Source: Bacilli bacterium
GTDB taxonomy: Bacteria; Bacillota_I; Bacilli_A; RF39; UBA660
Assembly (NCBI GenBank): GCA_028693035.1
Contig: JAQUWE010000016.1
Location: forward strand, 1-35,268
Length of the DNA stretch: 35,268 nt
Reading direction: 5' to 3'
The notes beneath the pieces are model-generated. The model was not told the DNA's origin and made no database searches. It worked only from the letters and a program-made list of their open reading frames with translations. Position 1 is the first letter of the stretch; each line of letters begins with the position of its first letter. Below, piece by piece: positions 12,393-26,298 of the stretch. The translations under genes and the position numbers were made by a program.

Positions 12393-12977
12393 TTAAAGAT
12401 ATAGTTTCTTTGTTTTGATATACTTTAGTACATCTCTATCCGTCATTTCAATTACATTTTTCCTATTTTCTTTTATCATTTTTCTTATCATTGTAGAAGA
12501 TATATCTTCCTTTTCTATATCTGCAACCACAATATTTTCTTTGTATTTTTCATAGAGTTGCAGCTCTTTATCAATCGCAATATGTTCTCTTTTTACAAGG
12601 AGTATTTTGTAGTGTTCCAATATATATGCACTTTTTTTCCAGCTATGAAAATCTTTTAGATGATCTGCACCACAGATAAAATAAATTTCATCTAAAGGAT
12701 ATTTTTGTTCAAAGTACTCTAAGGTTTCGTAAGTATAGGTGAGTTCTCCATATAATTCATGATCACTTACTTCTAATTGTGCAAATTTATCTGTGACTAT
12801 TTTAAGCATAGTATATCTGTCTATAGCAGGCAATAATCCTTCTTTGTTGTAATGATCCCCTGCAGGTACAAAAATAACTTTATCAAGTTTCTTCTGCTTA
12901 ATTAATTCTAATGCCATACCTATATGCATTTTATGCGGAGGATTAAAACATCCTCCTAATATACCTATTTTCATCAT
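12393..12977 (-). CDS. nadD: NadD: nicotinate-nucleotide adenylyltransferase
   Basis: The 194-residue enzyme has the nucleotidyltransferase opening ILGGCFNPPHKMH (residues 5-17), the FVPAG step, YFICGADHLKDFHSW, and the C-terminal ISSTMIRKMI. It makes nicotinic acid adenine dinucleotide from NaMN and ATP. Two adjacent ATGs (12977, 12974) follow GGATGTGAT, so either may be used. It sits between nadE and nrtR in the NAD locus. Confidence 0.93.
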   Translation of the reverse strand: MMKIGILGGCFNPPHKMHIGMALELIKQKKLDKVIFVPAGDHYNKEGLLPAIDRYTMLKIVTDKFAQLEVSDHELYGELTYTYETLEYFEQKYPLDEIYFICGADHLKDFHSWKKSAYILEHYKILLVKREHIAIDKELQLYEKYKENIVVADIEKEDISSTMIRKMIKENRKNVIEMTDRDVLKYIKTKKLYL

Positions 12978-13028
12978 ATCACATCCATTTTCTATTTCTG
13001 GTTTTAGGAATGTTAGTATCTTTATATA

Positions 13029-13793
13029 TTAATCTCTTTTATACGTTGGTGTTGTAAATTTGTGGAACGCATTTTGGTGAAATATTTTTATTTTATTTCT
13101 TGCACTTTCCTCTACTCTCTCAGGCTCCTCTATATAAGAAGCAATTTCCTTGTAGGTAACACCAAGTTTTTCTTCATCTGTTGCGTGACTTAGTCCATCA
13201 CTAGGTGCTTTAAACAATACCTCGTTTGGCACCTGTAAGTATTTTCCTATTTCTATCACTTCTTCTACAGTGAAGTCTGCAATAGGAGAAATATCATGGA
13301 CAGAGTCTCCTCCTTTTGTGAAATAACCAACATAGAGTTCACATTTGTTTGAAGTACCAATAACCAAGTAAGGTTTCTTTTCAAGTTCTGTTAAAAGGGC
13401 TGCAAAGTAATACACAGAAGCCATTCTAAGTCGTGGTTTTAAATTGATATCAGCATTTTTTACATCGGTTTCTTTTAAATCACTATAAAGAGTATCGATG
13501 TTGGTTTTAAATTGATCAAATATTTTTGTTAAATCAAAATCAAACAATCTAAATTCATAAAAATCACTAATCAATTTTGCATGATTCTTATCTGTTTCAA
13601 TAGAATGACATGGAAGTGTAAGACCGACTACGTTTTCTTTTCCAAGTGCTTTTACAAGTAAGGCAGAAACTACTGCACTATCTTTACCACCTGATATACC
13701 AAGTACAGCACCACCTAAACTATATTTTTGATAATAATTTCTAATAAATTCTATTATATTATCCGTTTCTTCTTTTGCATTAAATTTTGTCAT
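13029..13793 (-). CDS. nadE: NadE: ammonia-dependent NAD synthetase
   Basis: The 254-residue protein has the ATP-pyrophosphatase P-loop SGGKDSAVV (residues 34-42), LPCHSIETDK, GTSNKCELYVGYFTKGGD and the C-terminal PSDGLSHATDEEKLG. There is no glutaminase domain, so it should use ammonia. It amidates NaAD to NAD. The ATG overlaps the stop of the PRPP-synthetase-like gene by 4 nt (ATGA), a sign of translational coupling. Confidence 0.94.
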   Translation of the reverse strand: MTKFNAKEETDNIIEFIRNYYQKYSLGGAVLGISGGKDSAVVSALLVKALGKENVVGLTLPCHSIETDKNHAKLISDFYEFRLFDFDLTKIFDQFKTNIDTLYSDLKETDVKNADINLKPRLRMASVYYFAALLTELEKKPYLVIGTSNKCELYVGYFTKGGDSVHDISPIADFTVEEVIEIGKYLQVPNEVLFKAPSDGLSHATDEEKLGVTYKEIASYIEEPERVEESARNKIKIFHQNAFHKFTTPTYKRD

Positions 13794-14611
13794 TTTTCAT
13801 TCTCCTTATTTATATATTCTTCAATTTTAAATGGTAATATTTCTATTTTTTCATGCTTTTTAGTAAGTAAAGAATCTGTTGTATATATTTTATCAACCGG
13901 TGAGTTTTCTTCTGTGATGGGATTGATTGTAACTGCATTTTCTGTATGTACCACCAATACATATACTTTAGCGGCTCCTTTTTGTTTTAAAATTTGGGCA
14001 GCTTTATAAACCGTTGTACCACTTGCACATAAATCATCAATAATGATATATTGACTTCCCTTTTGTACATCGCCTGTTTCTAAATATAGTTCTTTTATTT
14101 TGGTGCTGGCTTCATCTCTTTTTTTGTTAAATATAAGTACATTTTTTTCTTTTTCATTGAAATATCTTTTGTAAGAACCTTTATCTGGAAAAACAAGGGC
14201 ATCGGTATCTTTGAAACCTTTTTTTTCTTTTACCATGTTCGTTAAGAGTTCCATAGGTCGGATGGCTTTCACTGGATGTAGAAGATTTACAGTTGCTTCT
14301 GAATGGGGTTCTAATACATATACTTTTCTAAACTTTAATTGGTTAATGATATTAGTCATGTATTTTAATAAAAATAAATCATTTTCAAATTCTCTATCCA
14401 TTCTACTGTAAGGCATATATCTGATATATAAATCTGCTTGGTATCCTTTGTCAGCAATACTATTTTTTAAAAAAATAAGTGCCATAATATCATCAGAAGT
14501 TTCGTACTTGAATTCAACCAGTGCATTTTCTTTATATGTAATATTTCTTATTCTGATTTCCTGGTTAGGAAAATATTCTATTTCAATATTTTGATTGTTG
14601 TATTTTATCAT
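13790..14611 (-). CDS. Short PRPP synthetase-like enzyme in the NAD operon
   Basis: The 273-residue protein has the two phosphoribosyltransferase-fold halves of ribose-phosphate pyrophosphokinase: RYMPYSRMDRE (flexible-loop and active-site region of half one) and the PRPP-binding loop YIIIDDLCASGTTVYKAA (about 190-207). It is shorter than housekeeping Prs (about 315) and its binding loop differs (DDLCASGTT instead of DDMIDTGGT). This type accompanies NAMPT or NAPRT genes, including in phage NAD pathways, where it supplies PRPP. Here it lies 6 nt after the Nudix gene and overlaps nadE, so a dedicated PRPP supply for PncB is likely. Confidence 0.85.
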   Translation of the reverse strand: MIKYNNQNIEIEYFPNQEIRIRNITYKENALVEFKYETSDDIMALIFLKNSIADKGYQADLYIRYMPYSRMDREFENDLFLLKYMTNIINQLKFRKVYVLEPHSEATVNLLHPVKAIRPMELLTNMVKEKKGFKDTDALVFPDKGSYKRYFNEKEKNVLIFNKKRDEASTKIKELYLETGDVQKGSQYIIIDDLCASGTTVYKAAQILKQKGAAKVYVLVVHTENAVTINPITEENSPVDKIYTTDSLLTKKHEKIEILPFKIEEYINKENEK

Positions 14612-14617
14612 TTTCTT

Positions 14618-15226
14618 CTATCTCCTTCTTATGTATTGTTTTGCTCTCTCTAGAGTGATAGCACCACCGGAACCTGCTATATACCCTTTATCTAATAATT
14701 CATAAGCTTCTTTTATTGTACATTCAAATATTTTCATAAATTCATCTTTGTCTCTATGTAAAACACCTGTTTTGGTACAATTCATTGCTAGAAAAGAATA
14801 ATTATAAGAATCAGAGCAGCCATCGTCTTGGTACCACCCATTTCCTAACTGGTACCACTGCTCGGAAAGATGTGCGGTTTCTTCTTCTAATTCTCTCATA
14901 GCTGCTTTCAAAGGATGTTCATTTTGATCTATATAACCAGCCGGAATTTCTACTCCCACTGTAGACCTTGTGAATACCCTAGGTTGCACGACCAAGAGTA
15001 CATTTCCTTCTGTAGTTATAGGAAGTATGATAGAGGCCCCTGGATGGGGATTGTCACTTCTTCCTTTGACAATTTTTTCTCTAATGATACTTTCTCCATT
15101 TTGTAGAGTTACCTGGTACGCTTCTGCCGATAAAAAGCGTGTAGGTTGATTTTCTTTTTTTACTATTTTAATTGTTTGCAATTCCTTTATGTAGTCATTT
15201 AATTCTTCCCATTTTTCTTTTCTCAT
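14618..15226 (-). CDS. Nudix hydrolase, ADP-ribose pyrophosphatase-like
   Basis: The 202-residue protein has the Nudix box GYIDQNEHPLKAAMRELEEETAHL (GX5EX7REUXEE, only the closing Gly replaced by Ala), preceded by VGVEIPA, as in ADP-ribose pyrophosphatases. Cleaving ADP-ribose would recycle NAD breakdown products and remove the NrtR effector. Its ATG overlaps the pncB stop by 4 nt. The substrate is inferred from the family and the operon. Confidence 0.85.
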   Translation of the reverse strand: MRKEKWEELNDYIKELQTIKIVKKENQPTRFLSAEAYQVTLQNGESIIREKIVKGRSDNPHPGASIILPITTEGNVLLVVQPRVFTRSTVGVEIPAGYIDQNEHPLKAAMRELEEETAHLSEQWYQLGNGWYQDDGCSDSYNYSFLAMNCTKTGVLHRDKDEFMKIFECTIKEAYELLDKGYIAGSGGAITLERAKQYIRRR

Positions 15227-16680
15227 TTTACTTTTACCTTTGGAGGGTCTACCTCTTCTACTTTATAAAACTCTATCAATTCTTGTTTTAAAGAAGATAA
15301 TTTTTCACTCAAATCTACATAGTATTCATGGGGATTGGTAACTCTTTGTATCTCTGGATATAAGGTATCAAATTGTTCTTTAGAAAAATCTCTTCTTTTA
15401 TGAATATTTGGTTGTCTATAAACTTGTTTTCCATTCTTAAAAATGGGTACTTGCAATTCGTGTACTTCATAATTACTTAATTCTTGTTTTTTATATTTCT
15501 GTTCTGGATGCACCAATGTGTATTTTTCTTTGTCAATTATTTCATCAGAAAGAGCGATGACATCTCCTAATGCATATCCAGTATCCTTGTCATAAAATCT
15601 ATATACTTTTTTATAACCAGGATTGATTGTTTTGATAGCATCATTGCTGATTTTTATTCTTGGTACAATTTGATCGTCTTCCTCTACCGCTACCAGTTTA
15701 TACACGCCGCCTACTCTTTCTTTAGCGGCTGCAATATTGTTACCTGCACCAATCGTATCAAAAGGAGTACCTTGTTCTATTAAACTTGTAATCGTGTATT
15801 CATCTAAATCACTGCTTATACATATCTTGGTATCTTTAAAAGAAGCATCATCTAACATTTTTCTAGCCATTTTGCTTAGGTACGCCAAATCCCCACTATC
15901 AATACGAATTCCTTTAAAGGGATACCCATTTGGAATTAGAAAATCCTTTGCAACTTTAATCGCATTTGGAATTCCACTTTTTAAAGTGTCATATGTATCT
16001 ACTAGAAAAATTGCATTATTTGGATTTGCTTTCGCATAACTTAGAAAAGCATCATATTCACTTTTGGATTCGGTAACCAAACTATGTGCCATCGTACCCA
16101 TAAGTGGGACCCCATAGTCCATACCTGCTTTGGTATTGGAAGTTCCTACGCACCCTGCTATATACGCATATTTACTAGCCCCAATCGCAGATTCTACTCC
16201 ACGGGCTCTTCTGGCACCAAATTCCATAACTGGTTTATCTTTAGCTGCATGAACAATTCTTTTTGCAGCTGTCATAACAAGTGAACCATGATTGAAATCT
16301 GTTAAAAGGGCTGTCTCTATAATGGAAGCTACAATTATATTGGCTTTAATTGTAACCGCTGGTTCATTTGGAAAAACAGGTGTTCCATCTGGTACCGCAT
16401 AGATGTCTCCATCAAATTTCAAATTTTTTAAATATTGTAAAAATTCTTCACAAAAATTACCTAAACTTCTTAAAAATTGTATTTCTTTATTTGTAAATTT
16501 AAAGTTCTTAATATACTGAATTATATTATCTAAGCCTCCTGCAATTGTATATCCTCCATCAAAAGGGTTTTTCCTGAAGAATAAATCAAAGTATACTTGT
16601 TCATTCTCTTTTCCATCGTGGAAATAGGTCTGTGCCATTGTTAATTCATAAAAATCTGTCATTAGTGTATTATTTCTCAT
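15223..16680 (-). CDS. pncB: PncB: nicotinate phosphoribosyltransferase
   Basis: The 485-residue protein opens with LMTDFYELTMAQTYF and carries EFGARRARG, the catalytic-region MGTMAHSLV (phosphorylatable His), FLVDTYDTLKSG, IRIDSGDLA and SSDLDE. It converts nicotinate plus PRPP (with ATP) to NaMN. A TGTTAATATCA box, one mismatch from the pncA-promoter boxes, lies 30-40 bp upstream of the ATG. Confidence 0.95.
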   Translation of the reverse strand: MRNNTLMTDFYELTMAQTYFHDGKENEQVYFDLFFRKNPFDGGYTIAGGLDNIIQYIKNFKFTNKEIQFLRSLGNFCEEFLQYLKNLKFDGDIYAVPDGTPVFPNEPAVTIKANIIVASIIETALLTDFNHGSLVMTAAKRIVHAAKDKPVMEFGARRARGVESAIGASKYAYIAGCVGTSNTKAGMDYGVPLMGTMAHSLVTESKSEYDAFLSYAKANPNNAIFLVDTYDTLKSGIPNAIKVAKDFLIPNGYPFKGIRIDSGDLAYLSKMARKMLDDASFKDTKICISSDLDEYTITSLIEQGTPFDTIGAGNNIAAAKERVGGVYKLVAVEEDDQIVPRIKISNDAIKTINPGYKKVYRFYDKDTGYALGDVIALSDEIIDKEKYTLVHPEQKYKKQELSNYEVHELQVPIFKNGKQVYRQPNIHKRRDFSKEQFDTLYPEIQRVTNPHEYYVDLSEKLSSLKQELIEFYKVEEVDPPKVKVK

Positions 16681-17773: not shown

Positions 17774-19027
17774 TTATTTTAGATAATTCATTAAGAAAAA
17801 TAAAATCCTACTCACTGAATCTACCGTAAATATTTTCTGATTGTCTTGTTTTATAAGATTAAAGCCATCTACCTTAACAGTCTTTATCTTTGAAGCACGT
17901 GCTGCCTCTATTCCTCTATCTGAATCTTCTATTGCTATACAATGAGCAGAGTTTTCTTGTAGTGCTTCAAGTGCTTTTAGATAAGCATCTGGACTGGGTT
18001 TTAAATTTGAAACATCATCTCTAGTTACTATTACATCAAAAAGTGTATCAATTTTTAGAGTTTGCACTAAAATATCAATAAATTTTCGCTTTGAAGTAGT
18101 TACCAATCCTAACTTAATATTTTTTTCTTTTACTCTTTTTAATAATTCAAAATTTAAAATAGTTTCAGGTTCTAAAAGTAAGTTTTGGAATCTATTTTCG
18201 TATTCATTATAAACGAATTGGATTATTTCTTCATAGCTAACTTCCTTTGAAATTTTACCTATATTTTTTAAATAAGGAATTAGCTGTGCATTTTGCTTAA
18301 GTTCATATTGTTGATACTCTTGCATAGTAATTTCTACATTGTAAATTTCCTTCAATATTTTTTTAAAACTAGTAAAGAATGCCAATTCACTATTGATTAG
18401 CGTTCCATCCAAATCCAAAAAAATGGTTGTTAAAGTGTCAGAAGGTAGAAGTTTTTCATACATACTTTTTGCTACAAAATCTCTGTAAGGTAGATCTGCA
18501 GATTCTAAATGAATAGATGCAAATTTTTCAATAAAATGATCTAGTTTTTCTTTCAAACAGTGCATATCTTGATTATCATCTGTACTTAGTATTTCAAACT
18601 CTACAAAATTTCCTAATTCGTTTATTTGATCAATCATAACATTATAAGTTAAATCATTATCAGTATGAGAATATGTAAGTCTTTTCTTATTTACTATTGC
18701 ATAACTATAATATCCTAAAGTAGACAAAAAACCTATTGTATCCTTGTATTCCTTTATATCTAATGAAATATTGTTTTCTGTTTTGGCATACAAATTCGTA
18801 AGTTCCTTTGATTTTCCTTTAAATGTTAATTCCATTCTTTCCTCATTGGTTTTTCTAATTCTAAGGCATGTTCTATTTTTAATAAATATACTATCTATAT
18901 CCGTAAAATATTCATCTGTTTCATGACTCGTTTCAACCAATTTAAATCCAGTATCCATTACTACTTGTTCTAATTTCTTTATGTTTTCACAATAAAATTT
19001 CTTTTCTATTTCTACTCTCTTTGCCAT
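17774..19027 (-). CDS. CYTH-domain / HAD-hydrolase fusion protein
   Basis: The 417-residue protein joins two enzyme families. Residues 1-190 are a CYTH (triphosphate tunnel) domain with the ExExK signature in VEIEKKF (E6, E8, K10) and the basic strands CLRIRK and MELTFKGK. Residues 200-417 are a beta-phosphoglucomutase-type HAD hydrolase with motif I FLDLDGTLINSE (D205, D207), motif II VTTS, the Lys in LKPSPDAYLKAL and motif IV IEDSDRGIEAA. Both active sites look complete. The CYTH part could cleave a triphosphate (thiamine triphosphate-like or polyphosphate) and the HAD part a phosphate ester, but the substrates are unknown. AAAAGGAGA precedes the ATG. It is a single gene with its own terminator. 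Confidence 0.88.
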   Translation of the reverse strand: MAKRVEIEKKFYCENIKKLEQVVMDTGFKLVETSHETDEYFTDIDSIFIKNRTCLRIRKTNEERMELTFKGKSKELTNLYAKTENNISLDIKEYKDTIGFLSTLGYYSYAIVNKKRLTYSHTDNDLTYNVMIDQINELGNFVEFEILSTDDNQDMHCLKEKLDHFIEKFASIHLESADLPYRDFVAKSMYEKLLPSDTLTTIFLDLDGTLINSELAFFTSFKKILKEIYNVEITMQEYQQYELKQNAQLIPYLKNIGKISKEVSYEEIIQFVYNEYENRFQNLLLEPETILNFELLKRVKEKNIKLGLVTTSKRKFIDILVQTLKIDTLFDVIVTRDDVSNLKPSPDAYLKALEALQENSAHCIAIEDSDRGIEAARASKIKTVKVDGFNLIKQDNQKIFTVDSVSRILFFLMNYLK

Positions 19028-19182: not shown

Positions 19183-19228
19183 TGGTGTTCCCGAGAGGAA
19201 TTGAACCTCCGACCTATCGCTTAGGAGG
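19183..19228 (-). pseudogene. 3' half of the host tRNA-Arg(CCU), cut in the anticodon loop
   Basis: On the minus strand the stretch runs from the anticodon-loop core CCTCCTAAG through the stem half GCGAT, a variable loop AGGTC, a full T-arm (GGAGG, TTCAATT loop, CCTCT) and the acceptor strand CGGGAAC to A-CCA. The D-arm and 5' acceptor strand are missing here. They are found 6.5 kb away at 25,731-25,770, and the joined halves give a perfect tRNA. Confidence 0.9.
19220..19228. repeat. Attachment core, left copy
   Basis: CTTAGGAGG, the anticodon-loop sequence shared by both junctions of the element. The same nine bases recur at 25,731-25,739 and inside the element-borne tRNA (25,584-25,592). 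Confidence 0.85.
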
Positions 19229-19343
19229 GGGTAAGAATTTAATTTAGTATACCATTTATTTCTATAAATTCGTTGTTTTTTCAAATATACTTTTTTAAAT
19301 TTTTGATGTTTTTTTCGATTATTTTAAATACTGTATAATGAAA

Positions 19344-19362
19344 GTCGCCCCAAAATCGCCCC
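19344..19362. repeat. Putative integrase arm-type sites, left end
   Basis: Two direct TCGCCCC units start 11 bp apart, about one helix turn, with a related TCGCCAA further inside (near 19,431). Paired arm sites are expected for lambda/Tn916-type integrases with N-terminal arm-binding domains. Confidence 0.4.
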
Positions 19363-19459
19363 TTTTAGTTTTTAAATCCTATCCATAAGATAATTATAGT
19401 ACTTTTACTTTATTTTTTTTATATCAATTGTCGCCAACTTGAATAAATTTTTAAACTCT

Positions 19460-21274
19460 TTAATTTTCTTTTTTATAATACTTATTATATAACTTCAACA
19501 TATATCGTGAAGGTGTAACCGTTTTATCCCAAAATGTACCATCTTTTTTTTGTATTCTATTTATGGAAGAACCTACTAATATACATGTCTTTTTCGCCCG
19601 ACTTACACAAACATAGCATAGTCTATTATCTTCTGATAATGCTTCTTGATCACCTAAATGAGAATGATACGGGAAGTTTCCTTCCTCCATTCCTAATAAT
19701 ACAATTACCTCAAATTCTAATCCCTTTGAACTATGTCTAGTTGAAATAGTTACTTGATTATCTGGTTTTCCTATTTTTGAAAATTTTGAAATATCGTAGA
19801 TATTAAATGGGTCCTTATCTAGTTCCTCTAGGAGTAGTTTTAAATTATCCATTTCATTAGGATATATTAAACTATTATCGAATATTGAATAAATATCTAA
19901 TTTGTCTATCATTTCAACAATCCATAATTTTAGATTATTTTCTTTAATTTTACTATTGGTTAAGATTTTATATAATTTTTTTATCTCATCTTCTTGAAGA
20001 ATAATATGAAAGTCATCTGCCTCATTCTTAATCATTAATAATTGAATCCAAAAACTAAATATATCATCAAAACTTGCTAGTGATCCATCAACTACCCATT
20101 GTGCACATTCCTCTAACCATTTTATTAAATCGGTACGTTCAAAAACCTGCTTAGATATATAATTAGGGATGTCTTTATTGCTAAATAAAAGACTTAGTTC
20201 CTTCGCTTGCGTATTGTTTGCAATTAGAAAGGCAATTTCTTCTAACGGAATTCCTTCCTTGATATAGTGAGGAACTATTTTATCTGCACAATATTTATAT
20301 TGATCTTCTATTGTTTCTCCTTCCCGCCACACAAAATAGTATTCCGCATTCTCTTCCACCTTATTTACTGATACACAATTTCTCTGCTTATCTAAAACCA
20401 GTTCTGAGCCATCTACAATATCTTGGTTGCTTCGATAATTATTTTTTAGTTCTATTCTAATAACATCATCACGGTTATATAACTCGTTTAAATAATCAGG
20501 AATTGCTCCAGTAAATCCATAAATGGACTGTTCTGGATCTCCAACTGCAAATATTTTAACAGTTGTATTTGTGTATAATGCTAAAATCATCTCATGTAGA
20601 GGTCTACCTAAATCTTGATACTCATCTATTAATATCCAAGGAAATTTTGCCACCAATGACTTTCTAACGTAATTTTGCTCTTGAATCATAAGAGTCGATA
20701 TTTTTATTATACCTTCATAATCTATTACACCAGCCAATTCTAATTTTTTCTCGTATAATTCCGCAAGCTCACATATAGCACTATTAGATTGAAATTCTAC
20801 TTGACTTATTCCATCAATATTTAAAGTTCGCTCTCTATTGATAGATTCAATTTTTATATTATTAAATCCTAGTTCTTCCTTAGCCTCGTTAAATATCTCT
20901 TTTTTCTGTCTATCAGAAACAATTCTAATTGGTAATGTCAGTCCATAATCATATATATCACCAAATTTATTTAATATTTCTTGAATACAAAATGAATGAA
21001 CAGTACCTAAAAATACATTTTCTCTTTTTGGATATCCTAATTTATTTAACTTATCCTTGAAATCTCTTGCGGATTCTTTGCTATAAGTAATACATGCTAC
21101 TCCTCTAGGAGATAAAACCTTTTCTCTTAATAATCGAATAATTTTCAATGTTAGAACAGTTGTTTTTCCGCTACCGGGTCCTGCAACTACTACAGTACTA
21201 TCATTAGATAAATATGCTTTATATTGATTTTCATCAGATTTTATTTGTCTTAATTTTCCCTCATAATAAGTCAT
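19460..21274 (-). CDS. gajB: GajB: UvrD-like superfamily-1 helicase of a Gabija system
   Basis: The 604-residue protein shows the full SF1A helicase set: Walker A AGPGSGKTT (31-39), motif Ia ITYSKESARDF, GTVHSFC, motif II LIDEYQD (215-221), motif III VGDPEQSIYGFTGA, motif IV ELKNNYRS, motif V STRHSSKGLEFEVIVLLGMEEG and motif VI YVCVSRAKK. In Gabija, GajB is thought to assist or signal to GajA when DNA ends or nucleotide depletion appear during phage attack. Its ATG overlaps the gajA stop by one base (TGATG), so the pair is translationally coupled. It is longer than the reference GajB (about 500), with an acidic insertion before motif V. Confidence 0.85.
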   Translation of the reverse strand: MTYYEGKLRQIKSDENQYKAYLSNDSTVVVAGPGSGKTTVLTLKIIRLLREKVLSPRGVACITYSKESARDFKDKLNKLGYPKRENVFLGTVHSFCIQEILNKFGDIYDYGLTLPIRIVSDRQKKEIFNEAKEELGFNNIKIESINRERTLNIDGISQVEFQSNSAICELAELYEKKLELAGVIDYEGIIKISTLMIQEQNYVRKSLVAKFPWILIDEYQDLGRPLHEMILALYTNTTVKIFAVGDPEQSIYGFTGAIPDYLNELYNRDDVIRIELKNNYRSNQDIVDGSELVLDKQRNCVSVNKVEENAEYYFVWREGETIEDQYKYCADKIVPHYIKEGIPLEEIAFLIANNTQAKELSLLFSNKDIPNYISKQVFERTDLIKWLEECAQWVVDGSLASFDDIFSFWIQLLMIKNEADDFHIILQEDEIKKLYKILTNSKIKENNLKLWIVEMIDKLDIYSIFDNSLIYPNEMDNLKLLLEELDKDPFNIYDISKFSKIGKPDNQVTISTRHSSKGLEFEVIVLLGMEEGNFPYHSHLGDQEALSEDNRLCYVCVSRAKKTCILVGSSINRIQKKDGTFWDKTVTPSRYMLKLYNKYYKKEN

Positions 21275-23247
21275 CAGTATTCATCAACTCTTTGGTAAAT
21301 TGCTTCTATAGCTTCTACTATTATTGAAGAAATATTTTCTAAAATACAATTTTCTGAAAATAATTGTGCAAATCTGCCTTTACCAATACCATTTGCTTCT
21401 ATTTTACTTAAGCATTTAATAAATTGACCACTATCCAATTCACTAGCAAAATTATTTTTCTGTCTTTGTCCTCCATCAGTCAACGAGTTAAATGTATTAC
21501 ATATTTTCTCTTTTGCCTCTAAACTTAAAGAAGTTTCCATCATATCTGTTTCGAATGTATATTTTCCAATAAAAATTCCATACTCTTTTGCGGTGGTTCT
21601 ATTTACTTCTATTTTATTTTCTTCTTCAATTCCGTCATTTATGATTTTATCAGCAATATCAACTCCTAAATATCCTGTTGTCTTACTATCGCCTTGAATA
21701 TCTAAAATATGGAATTTTTTTATTTCTTTCCCCTCTGAATCTTTCTCAATGCAATAGAAGTCCCCATCTGTAATAATTATGTATGGTATGTTGAGATTTT
21801 TCAGCAGCTTTGCATATGGTTTGAAATTGGTTGAGTTAATATTACAAACTATTATACCTTTTTCGTCTAATGGTTTATTCATTAACTTTGCGTATTGTGG
21901 AATCAAATATTCCTCTGTTACCCCTTCAACAAGAATTACTCCTTTACTAAGATATATTTCTCCCCTTTTTATATCTAAATACCTTTCAACATCTTTTCCA
22001 TCATCACCTAGATTTAGTAATGCTGATGTATTAACCTTTGTACCGTCATTTGTAGTTGAATGAAGATGAATAATAGTATTTATTGGAGAAATTGATGTAA
22101 TATGAGTTGAGTGGGTTGTCATCAGAACTGATCTGCTATTTTTTTGAATAATATCCTTATATATTAATCTTTGATATATCGGATGTAAATGAGCCTCTGG
22201 TTCTTCAATAGCTAGGAGTGTAACACCTTTGTTGTTAGAATTATTCTCATCCATAAAATTATGTAATTTCAATTGTTTATCATTATCAATATTAGTATTT
22301 AAAACATAATTACCTTTTTCTGTCTGAGTGTAGGTGTCATTAATTATTTCAAAACCTTTGATTGTTGAAAACTCATCATATTTATCCTTTTTTAATAAAC
22401 TAGGTATTGTTGTATCTTGCAATAATTGAATCATAAGGGAAATATATACAATATTATTTAATCCTAAACTAATATCGTTAATATTTCTATTTGCTAACAT
22501 AATTTTCATTGATGATATAATCTTGTTAGGATCTATTTCTTGAGTTCCAAAAGTAATATTAAGCTCATCATTTCCTAATATTTCTGAAAATCTCATATTA
22601 AGTTTTCTAGTTATATCTTTTATTTCATCTAGTGATAAAATTTTATCACTACTGTTTGAAAATGATGATGCGATTTCCTCTAAATCATTTGGATCAAAAT
22701 TATATTCTTTTAAAATTTTATTAATTGGAGAGATTCGATAATTTTTCAATTCAGTCTCAACATCTCTTAATGGCTTAATTACTTTAAGATTTAAATATTT
22801 TCTCTCAGAAAATGTAAAGTCCTTATTATGTTCAGGATTTCCCTTCAAAATAGTATATATATATTCCTTTTTCCCATCTTCATATTCATAAGGAAAATAT
22901 CTATAAGTAAGTAAAATTTTCTCTTCTTCACCCTCTATGACTATCGCATCATTTAACATTGCTAGGATTGTCTTATTATCAGAAAAATTACTAATATATA
23001 CTTGTATTAGAATTTCTTCATTATGTTCAACTGGATTCTCTATAGTATCATTAAAATCTGTGTCATTTAGACTACGATCATCATCAGATAAAGATGGATC
23101 TAGAATTAATTGTAATGCTCTTAAGAAATTTGTCTTACCAACATTATTTTCACCGATAATAATTCCTTTATGACTTAATTGAATATCTACATTCTTAAAA
23201 TTCCTAAAGTTCTTAATTACTACTCTCGATATGAATAAACTCTGCAT
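21274..23247 (-). CDS. gajA: GajA: OLD-family ATPase/TOPRIM nuclease of a Gabija system
   Basis: The 657-residue protein has an N-terminal ABC-type ATPase: Walker A GENNVGKTN (32-40), Walker B LLAIEEPEAHLHP (344-356) and the H-loop TTHST (H379). A TOPRIM nuclease follows: the acidic VILVEG (E441) and TDGD (D494, D496). This order defines OLD nucleases, and the adjoining UvrD-like helicase places it with the class 2 OLD/Gabija pair, where GajA nicks DNA when nucleotides fall. RecF- or SMC-like proteins lack the TOPRIM part. A GGGAGG site precedes the ATG. It is longer than the reference GajA (about 580), mainly in the region between the ATPase halves. Confidence 0.88.
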   Translation of the reverse strand: MQSLFISRVVIKNFRNFKNVDIQLSHKGIIIGENNVGKTNFLRALQLILDPSLSDDDRSLNDTDFNDTIENPVEHNEEILIQVYISNFSDNKTILAMLNDAIVIEGEEEKILLTYRYFPYEYEDGKKEYIYTILKGNPEHNKDFTFSERKYLNLKVIKPLRDVETELKNYRISPINKILKEYNFDPNDLEEIASSFSNSSDKILSLDEIKDITRKLNMRFSEILGNDELNITFGTQEIDPNKIISSMKIMLANRNINDISLGLNNIVYISLMIQLLQDTTIPSLLKKDKYDEFSTIKGFEIINDTYTQTEKGNYVLNTNIDNDKQLKLHNFMDENNSNNKGVTLLAIEEPEAHLHPIYQRLIYKDIIQKNSRSVLMTTHSTHITSISPINTIIHLHSTTNDGTKVNTSALLNLGDDGKDVERYLDIKRGEIYLSKGVILVEGVTEEYLIPQYAKLMNKPLDEKGIIVCNINSTNFKPYAKLLKNLNIPYIIITDGDFYCIEKDSEGKEIKKFHILDIQGDSKTTGYLGVDIADKIINDGIEEENKIEVNRTTAKEYGIFIGKYTFETDMMETSLSLEAKEKICNTFNSLTDGGQRQKNNFASELDSGQFIKCLSKIEANGIGKGRFAQLFSENCILENISSIIVEAIEAIYQRVDEY

Positions 23248-23301
23248 ATGAACCTCCCAAAAAATATAATTTGATTAAATTTAATATTTTAATTATACCA
23301 T

Positions 23302-24696
23302 TTATTTCCAATCAAAGACAGAGATTACCTCCTTTTTCTTAGTTAAATTTGCATGAGTATATCTAAGAGTAGTAGAAATCTGTGAATGCCCCATTAGTTT
23401 TGAAACATCTGCAATAGATAAATTTTTATTATTATTGACTTGCATACTACAATAACTATGTCTTAATCCATGTACTGTGACATCCTTTAACTTATATTTA
23501 GTTCTAACTTTCTTCCATAAGTGAGTAATTGTATTCGGATTTATTATATTTCCATTTCTATTTAAGAAAACATTTTTATTCTCTGAAGTAATATTTCTTC
23601 GTTCTTTAATATAGTTTCTTAGTAAATTCATACAAAATTCCGGTAAAGGTACAACTCCTTGACTATTTTCAGTTTTAGTTGTTCTATTTATTACTTTATT
23701 TTTATTTTAATCCCAAATTGCGTTTCTTCTTATAAAAATACTACTATTATCAAAATCTATATTCTCTGGATATAAACCAAAAAGTTCACTCCTTCTAATA
23801 CCTGAGCATATTAAAACTGTAAAAACGGTTTGAGCAAATAAATCTTCATCCTCCAGTAATTTAATTATCTCTGTTAATTCTTCTTTGCTGTATATGAGTT
23901 TTTCTTTAGATTTAATTGCTATTCCTTTAACCTTATTTATAGGATTGCATTCTAGATAATCCCAGTATACAGCTTTATTTAAAACATTTCTTATCAATCT
24001 ATAAACTCCGCTAGTCGTATTCGTTGATAATAGTTCATATTCTCCATTACTATTCGGTCTAATCTTCCTACGAAGCTTTAAATCAGAAAAAAACATTTGA
24101 AGATCTTTAGTCGTTATTTTTGATAACTTCTTTGAAGCAAATGATGGTAGTATATAGTTATTCATAAAGGTCTTAATTCCAGTTAAGGTAGTTGGACTCA
24201 ATTCTTTCTCACAATAGTTTTTATACCAATAGTTTGTAAATTCATAAAAAGTTATTCCATCATTCTTAATTTTTCCTTTATTTAGTGTTAACTCAGCTAA
24301 TTTTTTGTTTCTAATTTCTTTTGCTCTCTTCAAACTATTTATTCCGCTTATTGAATAATAGTTATAACTTGTAGATGTTTTACTACCTTTTTTTATCACG
24401 ACTCTATATTTACCATTTGATTGCGTGTAAATATATTTATCGACCTTTTGTGGTTTAAATATTAGGTTTTTCTTTATTTGAGTTTTAGTTCTTTTCTTAG
24501 AAAATAACAAAAGTTTTTCATTCTTCTTTGTTTTATATAATTCAATATAATTTTCTTTTAAAATTTTATTTCTTATTTCTACTGCCTCTTTTAAACTGCA
24601 ATGAATCCTTTCATCATATTTAAACTTTGGATTTTCTCTTATTATTCTAATTCGATAATAATTATCATTCAAATAAGATATAAATTTTTCTTTCAT
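23302..24696 (-). pseudogene. Tyrosine integrase with one in-frame TAA
   Basis: Read through one stop (TAA at 23,707-23,709), this is a 464-codon integrase. The N-terminal part has two related arm-DNA-binding (AP2-like) repeats, about residues 10-45 and 95-140 (the latter with NGKYRVVIKKG). A SAM-like core-binding domain with TTLTGIKTFMNNYILPSF follows, then the catalytic domain with Arg I in CSGIRRSELF (R301), then HGLRHSYCS (HxxR) and the nucleophile in TTLRYTHANL. The stop separates Arg I from the HxxR and Tyr, so neither fragment should recombine DNA. Frame and sequence are otherwise intact, which suggests a recent nonsense mutation. Confidence 0.9.
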
Positions 24697-24725
24697 TTTT
24701 CTTCACCTCGTAATTTAGATTATAG

Positions 24726-24757
24726 GAAAAGAAAAACTACCTAAAATTAGGTAGTAA
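24726..24757 (-). terminator. Terminator after the coiled-coil cargo gene
   Basis: On the minus strand CTACCTAA and TTAGGTAG form an 8-bp perfect stem with a 2-nt centre, followed by TTTTTCTTTT. Confidence 0.8.
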
Positions 24758-24818
24758 ACGATCACAAATATTCTATTATAAATTTTGTATATGCAGGGGT
24801 AATATTTTTATTTATTAA

Positions 24819-25409
24819 TTAGCTCAAGACTTGCATGACAATAGGAATAAATGCAATACCAACTTCAACACTCTTATCTGCTAACCATACAAGAATTTTT
24901 TTTGCAGTTTCCCATTTCTTTTTTCTAGACTCACTTGAATTATTAATAGTCTCCAATTCTTTTAATTTTTGCAAAGCTTCAGTTGTTTCTTCATCTGTTA
25001 ATGATTCCATGTTTTTAATTTGCTCTTCAACGTCTTTAAAATTTATTTTTATTTCTGTTATATTACTAGCAGTATTTTGATTATTATTAGTATTATATAC
25101 TATAAAGGGATTTGCAAAATTTTGTTTAGAAACATTGAAAGTTTGTAGATAACCTTCTAATTTACCTTTCATAATTAAAAGATTATGTTCCATTGAGCCA
25201 CTATCTATCATACTGTATGCGAATCCGTGTTTTTCCATCCATCCATAAAAACTATGTCCCCAATTATTAATTTTCGATTGATATTTACTATCAATTTTCA
25301 TATGTAATTTTTTGACTTTTTCAGAATCATCAGAATTTTTTTCAAGAAGAATTTCTATTTCTTCTATATCTTTTTTTATATCTTCTTTTACTTTATCTCC
25401 ACTATCCAT
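24819..25409 (-). CDS. Unknown coiled-coil cargo protein of the element
   Basis: Not recognised. The 196-residue protein has an N-terminal charged helix (about 1-45), a middle part with HSFYGWMEKHGFAYSMIDSG, an Asn-rich spacer (NTNNNQNTASN, about 110-120), a second helical region (125-165) and a hydrophobic C-terminus (about 175-196) that may insert in a membrane. Helical, Asn-spaced proteins of this kind occur next to defence genes, but no family match can be claimed. It has a strong GAGGAGG site, a TATAAT box 20-30 bp ahead of the ATG and its own terminator, so it is expressed apart from the integrase. Confidence 0.7.
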   Translation of the reverse strand: MDSGDKVKEDIKKDIEEIEILLEKNSDDSEKVKKLHMKIDSKYQSKINNWGHSFYGWMEKHGFAYSMIDSGSMEHNLLIMKGKLEGYLQTFNVSKQNFANPFIVYNTNNNQNTASNITEIKINFKDVEEQIKNMESLTDEETTEALQKLKELETINNSSESRKKKWETAKKILVWLADKSVEVGIAFIPIVMQVLS

Positions 25410-25473
25410 ATCAATGCCTCCTCATTTATATACATTATACCATAAATTGAATTGTGTTTGTTTTAGATAATAC

Positions 25474-25506
25474 TCAAAAAAAGCACATTCATATAAACAA
25501 ATGTGC
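25474..25506 (-). terminator. Terminator after the element-borne tRNA-Arg
   Basis: On the minus strand GCACATT and AATGTGC form a 7-bp stem with a 10-nt loop, followed by seven Ts, 40 nt after the tRNA CCA end. Confidence 0.75.
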
Positions 25507-25546
25507 CTATCTAATATTGAAGTCGATTACCACGACTAATTTCTAA

Positions 25547-25623
25547 TGGTGTCCCCGGGCAGACTCAAACTGCCGACTTTTCGCTTAGGAGGCGAATACT
25601 CTATTCAACTGAGTTACGAGGAC
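25547..25623 (-). tRNA. tRNA-Arg(CCU), complete, carried by the element
   Basis: A full cloverleaf with encoded CCA: acceptor GTCCTCG with CGGGGAC (one T-G wobble), D-stem ACTC/GAGT, anticodon stem TTCGC/GCGAA with loop CTCCTAA (anticodon CCT, reads AGG), variable loop AAGTC, and T-stem GGCAG/CTGCC. The nearly universal G19 and C56 are A and T here, changes that together keep the D-loop/T-loop pair (A19-U56). It differs strongly from the split host tRNA-Arg(CCU) yet has the same anticodon loop. Its own terminator follows. It is likely a replacement for the gene destroyed by insertion. Confidence 0.92.
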
Positions 25624-25648
25624 ATATAAGGTTTTTTTAAGACTGATT

Positions 25649-25667
25649 TTGCCACATTTATTGCCAC
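25649..25667. repeat. Putative integrase arm-type sites, right end
   Basis: Two direct TTGCCAC units start 12 bp apart, similar in core (GCCAC/GCCCC) and spacing to the pair at 19,344-19,362 at the other end. Confidence 0.4.
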
Positions 25668-25710
25668 AATCTTATCGTAATTTTCTGTCCCTACCATAGT
25701 TCAGTGGAAT

Positions 25711-25738
25711 CTCCTAAGGCCCATTAAGGTCTTAGGAG
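25711..25738. repeat. Inverted repeat overlapping the right attachment core
   Basis: CTCCTAAGGCC and GGTCTTAGGAG pair over 11 bp (one wobble) around a 6-nt loop. The right arm contains the attachment core, so the left arm is an inverted copy of the core carried by the element. Confidence 0.6.
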
Positions 25739-25739
25739 G
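25731..25739. repeat. Attachment core, right copy
   Basis: CTTAGGAGG, identical to the left copy at 19,220-19,228. It continues directly into the 5' half of the host tRNA. Confidence 0.85.
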
Positions 25740-25770
25740 CGATTGCTCTATCCGACTGAGCTACGGAAAC
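25731..25770 (-). pseudogene. 5' half of the host tRNA-Arg(CCU)
   Basis: On the minus strand it starts GTTTCCG (acceptor), TA, D-arm GCTC-AGTCGGATA-GAGC with the normal G18G19, then ATCGC and the loop CTCCTAAG, where host similarity ends. The element sequence that follows does not rebuild a tRNA. It pairs with the half at 19,183-19,228: GTTTCCG with CGGGAAC, and ATCGC with GCGAT. Confidence 0.9.
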
Positions 25771-25794: not shown

Positions 25795-26298
25795 TTACTT
25801 TATGACATTGAATAAAAAAATCAAATAAATATTCATAATATAACTTACTTTATATCCAAATTTCATTAAAAATTCATAACTACCTACTACTTTGTCTGTA
25901 CAACTAACCAACCAGCTTTCTGCATATTTAGGAAGAGCTGTATACAAAGGGAACATGTGTGATTCAATGATGTTCTTTTCTTTATCACTAAGTTCAAATA
26001 AAGAGCCTGCTTTTCTAACCGCAATTCTAGGATGCGTGAAAACAGATATGAATCTTTCTTTTAAAGTTCTTTCTTCATCACTTAAAAAGAAATCGTGTAA
26101 AAGTCCTGCACGTGCGACTTCTCTATAATCTAGTTTTAATACCTTAGAGATTTTATAAGAATAATAAGAAACTCTAATGGAATGATCTAGTCTTGTAATA
26201 CCATGATGTTCTATATTATTTAATTTATTAAATTCTTTATTTTCTAAAATAGGATTCACTATATCTAAATATTTTAAATCATAATTGTATTTTAGCAT
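25795..26298 (-). CDS. HD-domain metal-dependent phosphohydrolase-like protein
   Basis: The 167-residue protein has the HD fold: RLDHSIRVSYYSYKIS (first His), LLHDFF (HD pair), THPRIAVRKAG and SHMFP (further His), and SCTDKVV (last Asp). Such proteins hydrolyse nucleotides or phosphate esters; the substrate is unknown. A GAGGTGA site lies ahead of the ATG. It sits directly beside the right end of the defence element and downstream of rpe, but probably belongs to the chromosome. Confidence 0.8.
   Translation of the reverse strand: MLKYNYDLKYLDIVNPILENKEFNKLNNIEHHGITRLDHSIRVSYYSYKISKVLKLDYREVARAGLLHDFFLSDEERTLKERFISVFTHPRIAVRKAGSLFELSDKEKNIIESHMFPLYTALPKYAESWLVSCTDKVVGSYEFLMKFGYKVSYIMNIYLIFLFNVIK

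Follow-up and report, generated by a model that had tools for sequence, protein, structure and literature searches.

An island of 6.5 kb bearing a predicted Gabija system has, very probably, split a host tRNA-Arg(CCU) gene, rebuilt it at neither end, and now supplies a diverged replacement tRNA of its own. The island lies in a 35,268-nucleotide stretch of DNA from a member of Bacilli, hereafter called the window. The features on which this reading is based are listed in Table 1.

Table 1. Features of the island and of the adjoining host sequence in the window
Feature	Position	Strand	Evidence
Host HD-domain gene, upstream neighbour of the tRNA	25795..26298	-	Kept beside tRNA-Arg(CCU) in G002 and G223
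Host tRNA-Arg(CCU) 5' half (attL), broken in the anticodon loop	25731..25770	-	Sequence, ARAGORN
Left copy of the 9-nt core CCTCCTAAG	25731..25739	-	Sequence
Inverted repeat CTCCTAAG-12 nt-CTTAGGAG across the attL core	25711..25738	-	Sequence; RNA fold
Direct repeat TGTGGCAA...TGTGGCAA, candidate left arm-type integrase sites	25649..25668	-	Sequence; analogy with attP arm sites
Complete tRNA-Arg(CCU) carried by the element	25547..25623	-	ARAGORN; Rfam RF00005, 59.6 bits
Terminator-like hairpin and T run, directly after the carried tRNA	25481..25508	-	Terminator scan
196-aa ORF, no named family	24819..25409	-	Pfam, PADLOC and PHROG comparisons
Tyrosine integrase, single in-frame TAA at 23709-23707	23302..24696	-	Pfam PF14659, PF00589; PHROG integrase; read-through alignment
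GajA, OLD-family nuclease of Gabija	21274..23247	-	PADLOC 613.5 bits; Pfam OLD-like TOPRIM
GajB, UvrD-like helicase of Gabija	19460..21274	-	PADLOC 658 bits
Direct repeat GGGGCGATTTTGGGGCGACTT, candidate right arm-type integrase sites	19341..19366	-	Sequence; inferred
Right copy of the 9-nt core CCTCCTAAG	19220..19228	-	Sequence
Host tRNA-Arg(CCU) 3' half (attR)	19183..19228	-	Sequence, ARAGORN
Host CYTH-HAD gene, right flank	17774..19027	-	Pfam; same-genus comparison

Insertion into the host tRNA gene

An earlier note on this DNA had placed the two halves of the host gene and their common core, and we confirmed the positions and sequences of both. The halves overlap only in the core, and the element measures 6,511 bp from core to core. 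When the halves were joined by script, ARAGORN called a 77-nt tRNA-Arg(CCT) with no non-standard stem pairs and with G18G19 present, whose minimum-energy fold is a cloverleaf, in agreement with the note's description of the joined sequence as a good tRNA. Its statement that the element sits in the anticodon loop and that neither junction rebuilds the tRNA was borne out as well, since ARAGORN found no tRNA at either the attL or the attR junction. A core of 9 nt is too short for the gene to be rebuilt at either side, and thus the insertion destroys the host tRNA gene. The note's conclusion on this point stands for the host copy and needs to be narrowed for the cell, which keeps a tRNA-Arg(CCU), the element carrying a complete diverged copy.

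The search for an empty site in close relatives, suggested in the note, succeeded on one side. In G002, a genome of the same genus, an intact tRNA-Arg(CCU) follows the genes rsgA, ppe and HD, all of them ordered and oriented as in the left flank of the window. The CYTH-HAD gene of the right flank had no match in five same-genus genomes; it appears to be lineage-specific, which would explain why the right-flank empty site was not found, and the empty site is confirmed for the left flank only. In a genome of another genus (G223), an HD gene of the window's family also adjoins a split tRNA, so that insertion at this host locus appears to have happened twice.

The sequence around the junctions contains several repeats. 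The host 5' half and the left junction form a strong RNA hairpin (region 25739-25687, minus strand; fold z-score -5.0), and the inverted repeat across the attL core is, from its sequence, a candidate integrase site or RNA-processing signal. The inverted sequence was also considered as a decayed tRNA half, a reading that was rejected because it scored no better than shuffles, the hairpin itself being strong. An inverted core copy is present in the left end of the element of G433 as well. The TGTGGCAA and GGGGCGATTTTGGGGCGACTT repeats, recognized by their repetition and by analogy with attP arm sites, may serve as arm-type sites; related elements have a repeated TGTCGCGAA at the position equivalent to that of GGGGCGATTTTGGGGCGACTT.

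A complete tRNA-Arg(CCU) inside the island

The carried tRNA begins 107 nt inside the left junction (counted after the left core) and includes its own copy of the core. It is identical to the host tRNA-Arg(CCU) at 58 of 77 positions. Five of its stem pairs represent double compensating changes relative to the host tRNA, and the tertiary pair 19-56 is A-U where the host has G-C. Neither this gene, called by ARAGORN as tRNA-Arg(CCT) at 25623-25547, nor the in-frame stop of the integrase appeared in the earlier note.

Using RF00005 matches, we built a tRNA inventory of the MAG (1.36 Mb, 93% complete, 6% contaminated). Among its 35 tRNA matches, the arginine anticodons are ACG, UCU, CCG and CCU, and the element copy is the sole intact CCU found. 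Within the limits of this incomplete genome, the element thus encodes the only dedicated AGG tRNA of the cell; given the incompleteness and contamination of the MAG, a second CCU copy could be missing from the assembly. The codon AGG is used 2.5 times per 1000 codons in 17 window genes. Because it is rare and a tRNA-Arg(UCU) that could read it by wobble is present, the host tRNA-Arg(CCU) may not be strictly essential. With a complete diverged tRNA-Arg(CCU) aboard the element, an insertion that does not rebuild its target could be tolerated.

Cargo and genomic surroundings

The island contains only the integrase, the two Gabija genes and one 196-aa ORF, and is not recognizable as a temperate phage. 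No phage structural, replication or transfer genes were recognized in it by Pfam, PADLOC or PHROG, and a scan of viral contigs with the integrase returned only distant integrases, with at most 36% identity. GajA lies beside GajB, the arrangement that defines Gabija, and the two genes overlap at 21274. Both match PADLOC models strongly, from which the pair is predicted to be an anti-phage system; the system itself is ordinary, and its vehicle is unusual. At the site of the integrase TAA, homologues have K or A, and conserved motifs are kept on both sides of the stop. This points to a recent inactivation of the integrase, or else to a base error in the MAG; with the nonsense codon, the island would probably be fixed in place in this genome.

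Elsewhere in the window, translations read by eye point to a cluster of nicotinate phosphoribosyltransferase-, NadE-, NadD-, PRPP synthetase- and NUDIX-like genes (12393-16680), which looks like NAD salvage. A DDE transposase (PF01609; 31858-33216) is located toward the right part of the contig.

Related elements in other genomes

Relatives were gathered by integrase search in the genome family and in named public genomes. Four further elements with both ends were detected in other Bacilli MAGs: G426 (L136), G427 (L140; Candidatus Faecimonas, class Bacilli), G428 (L144) and G433 (L194/L195). In all five complete elements, the window included, the joined halves give a tRNA-Arg(CCU), the junctions are not tRNAs, and a complete tRNA with the same anticodon lies inside the left end. 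The common core, 9 nt in the window, is CTCCTAAG (8 nt) in three of the four others and 14 nt in G433. Three additional elements are incomplete, with only the left end seen: G223 (L141/L103) and G429 (L142) have the host 5' half and a carried tRNA, and G430 (L139) has a carried tRNA and a degenerate 3' half. At many other loci, a 3' half alone was visible, the left end being outside what was seen. The pattern CTCCTAAG-N(110-140)-CTCCTAAGCGA occurred in the window and G223 only among 386 family genomes; the spacers of the other elements are outside this range.

The cargo of these islands differs. A kinase-like ORF was found in G426, a helicase close to the PADLOC candidate PDC-M23B in G429, and acetyltransferase, ASCH and amidotransferase genes in G428; by sequence comparison, at least two of the islands are predicted to carry defence genes. 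G428 also has another CCU-like gene, whose acceptor stem is poorly paired. One further locus (L145, tRNA-Thr) was rejected as a case of this design because its left junction is a rebuilt tRNA, and thus both styles occur among related integrases.

The carried tRNAs have diverged from the genes they replace without losing structure. They are identical to the replaced host tRNA at 54-59 of 77 positions (mostly 70-77%), or at 74 of 80 in G426; there are no non-standard stem pairs across eight carried tRNAs, and the differences from the host are mostly double and compensating. The tertiary pair 15-48 has changed from G-C to A-U in four other carried tRNAs, and all have kept A20, an arginine identity base in well-studied bacteria. 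Moreover, carried tRNAs are alike across hosts (71/77 between G427 and G223; 75/80 between G426 and G429), and that of G427 is closer to its counterpart in G223 than to the tRNA of its own host (59/77), the pattern to be expected of a gene that moves with its element. The integrases of G427 and G223 are only 39% identical despite their similar carried tRNAs, and such disagreements between the two relationships suggest module exchange. Together with synteny, the compensatory changes suggest that the carried tRNAs are expressed and functional.

It would also be conceivable that a dispensable tRNA gene was simply killed and that the island brought an unrelated tRNA along as a passenger, AGG being read by tRNA-Arg(UCU). 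The presence of tRNA-Arg(UCU) in the MAG, the rarity of AGG and the occurrence of tRNAs aboard many mobile elements are in line with this explanation, which we nevertheless consider unlikely: in all eight tRNA-Arg elements, the carried tRNA has the anticodon of the split tRNA and lies at one and the same end, and double changes have preserved every stem and tertiary pair.

Probable expression of the carried tRNA and proposed mechanism

No promoter-like site was found on the same strand between the left junction and the carried tRNA in the window, where promoter-like matches are at chance level. Two terminator-like sites were found versus 0.2 expected, one of them directly following the carried tRNA. 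The left end is visible in seven elements, and in each of these 92-355 nt separate the core from the start of the carried tRNA, which is read in the direction of the host half. Immediately before the host 5' half, G223, G428, G429 and G433 have TATAAT-like boxes. Since there is no clear promoter between the junction and the carried tRNA, transcription of the latter probably starts at the promoter that originally served the host tRNA, and on the simplest reading of the sequence this promoter would now drive the element tRNA. In G433 and G426, the carried tRNA may have its own promoter in addition.

We therefore propose a replacement mechanism whose steps are as follows. By means of its tyrosine integrase, the 6.5-kb Gabija island would have recombined with the anticodon loop of the host gene at the 9-nt core. 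The tRNA function lost in this way would be supplied by the island's own tRNA-Arg(CCU), the complete, diverged copy that lies a short way inside the left junction. Transcription would run from the host tRNA promoter through the 5' half, the 107-nt spacer and the carried tRNA to the terminator. The dedicated AGG tRNA of the host would then come from the island, and because of the resulting dependence, loss of the carried tRNA by deletion would be disfavoured unless the host gene were restored at the same time. More tentatively, and with a chance that we place slightly below even, a family of small non-phage cargo islands in gut Bacilli may persist in this manner, by destroying the host tRNA gene and placing a diverged replacement on the host promoter. 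If true, such a naturally occurring 'destroy and rescue' arrangement would tie defence genes to a translation function, and it may end in permanent replacement of the host tRNA gene.

The same architecture could also be read as a tandem or nested insertion, in which a second element, since lost for the most part by deletion, rebuilt the tRNA at 25623-25547 as its junction, and this tRNA has no rescue function of its own. A conventional rebuilder does exist among related integrases (L145), the complete tRNA holds its own core copy, and a second att-like piece is present in the left end of G433. However, seven elements, whose carried tRNAs have diverged, all have the order of 5' half, spacer of about 100-350 nt and complete tRNA, and chance nested deletions would not keep this order; we regard this explanation as very unlikely, although nested insertion could be the origin of the design. 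An assembly chimera, which must be considered for a window that is a MAG contig, is more improbable still, because MAGs of other projects have yielded assemblies with this layout too, and both the joined tRNA and the flanking HD synteny fit a real locus. The existence of two halves with complete stems recalls the split genes of some Archaea, whose halves are joined in trans as RNA, but this explanation hardly merits credence here given the complete tRNA copy and the whole gene in same-genus G002, and no trans-joining pathway for split tRNAs is known in bacteria.

Comparison with known systems

The replacement design resembles the tRNA-dependent lysogeny described for actinobacteriophages such as Fionnbharth, Gaia, Cluster L and others (Guerrero-Bustamante & Hatfull 2024, PMC10865867), in which a phage tRNA of the same isotype was shown genetically to be required for lysogeny. 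Both use a tyrosine integrase and an attB within a tRNA gene, have a short core (8-17 bp in the phages), do not rebuild the target, and encode a tRNA of the same isotype. The phage systems involve whole temperate phages of Actinobacteria that target tRNA-Lys, Ile2 and Leu (PMC10865867), whereas here a four-gene non-phage island of Bacilli targets tRNA-Arg(CCU) and, unlike the actinobacteriophage cases, has its tRNA immediately inside attL. The island has the sequence features of tRNA-dependent integration, namely an integrase (with one in-frame stop), a short core without rebuilding and a same-isotype tRNA, and no phage is recognizable in it; it thus appears to work like tRNA-dependent lysogeny without being lysogeny. 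Rescue by the carried tRNA is proven genetically in the phages and is proposed for the island from its sequence.

How widespread the strategy is beyond actinobacteriophages was left open in that work, which named one possible case outside Actinobacteria, Lj965 of Lactobacillus johnsonii (PMC10865867). As cited there, Lj965 shares with our island an unrebuilt tRNA, an encoded cognate tRNA and a host in Bacillota, a likeness by description, and differs in being a prophage. Classical tRNA-gene islands (Islander database, PMC4383910) also have a tyrosine integrase, a tRNA target and short terminal direct repeats, but they restore the tRNA at one junction, and the present island does so at neither. 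At a Caldiarchaeum tRNA-Thr locus (PMC3293823), a tRNA 5' fragment similarly lies upstream of a complete tRNA with a link to mobile elements; this archaeal locus was read as a rebuilt intron-containing tRNA plus a fragment, with no host gene split at both junctions.

We found no report of non-phage islands of this design in the open-access literature. The principle is known from phages, and the difference lies in small non-phage islands, at least two of which have putative defence genes; the placement of the rescue tRNA just behind the host tRNA promoter would be a further difference from known phage cases. The appearance of tRNA-dependent integration in small Bacilli islands that are not recognizable phages bears on the question of prevalence (PMC10865867) and explains why a tRNA gene is present inside such islands. 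It also suggests how defence islands could be stabilized and how a mobile tRNA gene can take the place of a bacterium's own. Island finders that need a rebuilt tRNA may miss such elements.

Variant arrangements

Several loci depart from the common layout. In G433, the tRNA-Arg halves are about 44 kb apart, so this att design can carry a much larger element. Beside a related integrase in G194, a tRNA-Met 5' half is followed by a complete tRNA-Met, possibly a tRNA-Met version. At L104/L135 and at L198 (G169), a complete tRNA-Glu(CUC) is followed by a tRNA-Glu 3' half on the integrase side, which may be a mirror design; L104/L135 was retained only as a possible mirrored case, as no 5' half was found.

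In G004, a genome of the window's genus, a tRNA-Arg(CCU) near an HD gene (L097, 4583-4507) resembles the carried tRNAs (69/77 to that of G428; variable loop AGATT). There is no integrase among the ORFs listed around it, and it is possibly a replacement tRNA left after loss of the element. Finally, at L147 (7855-7933), a carried-type tRNA like that of L142 lies behind a promoter-like sequence and beside an integrase, without a host 5' half, an arrangement that might have arisen by recombination of two tRNA copies.
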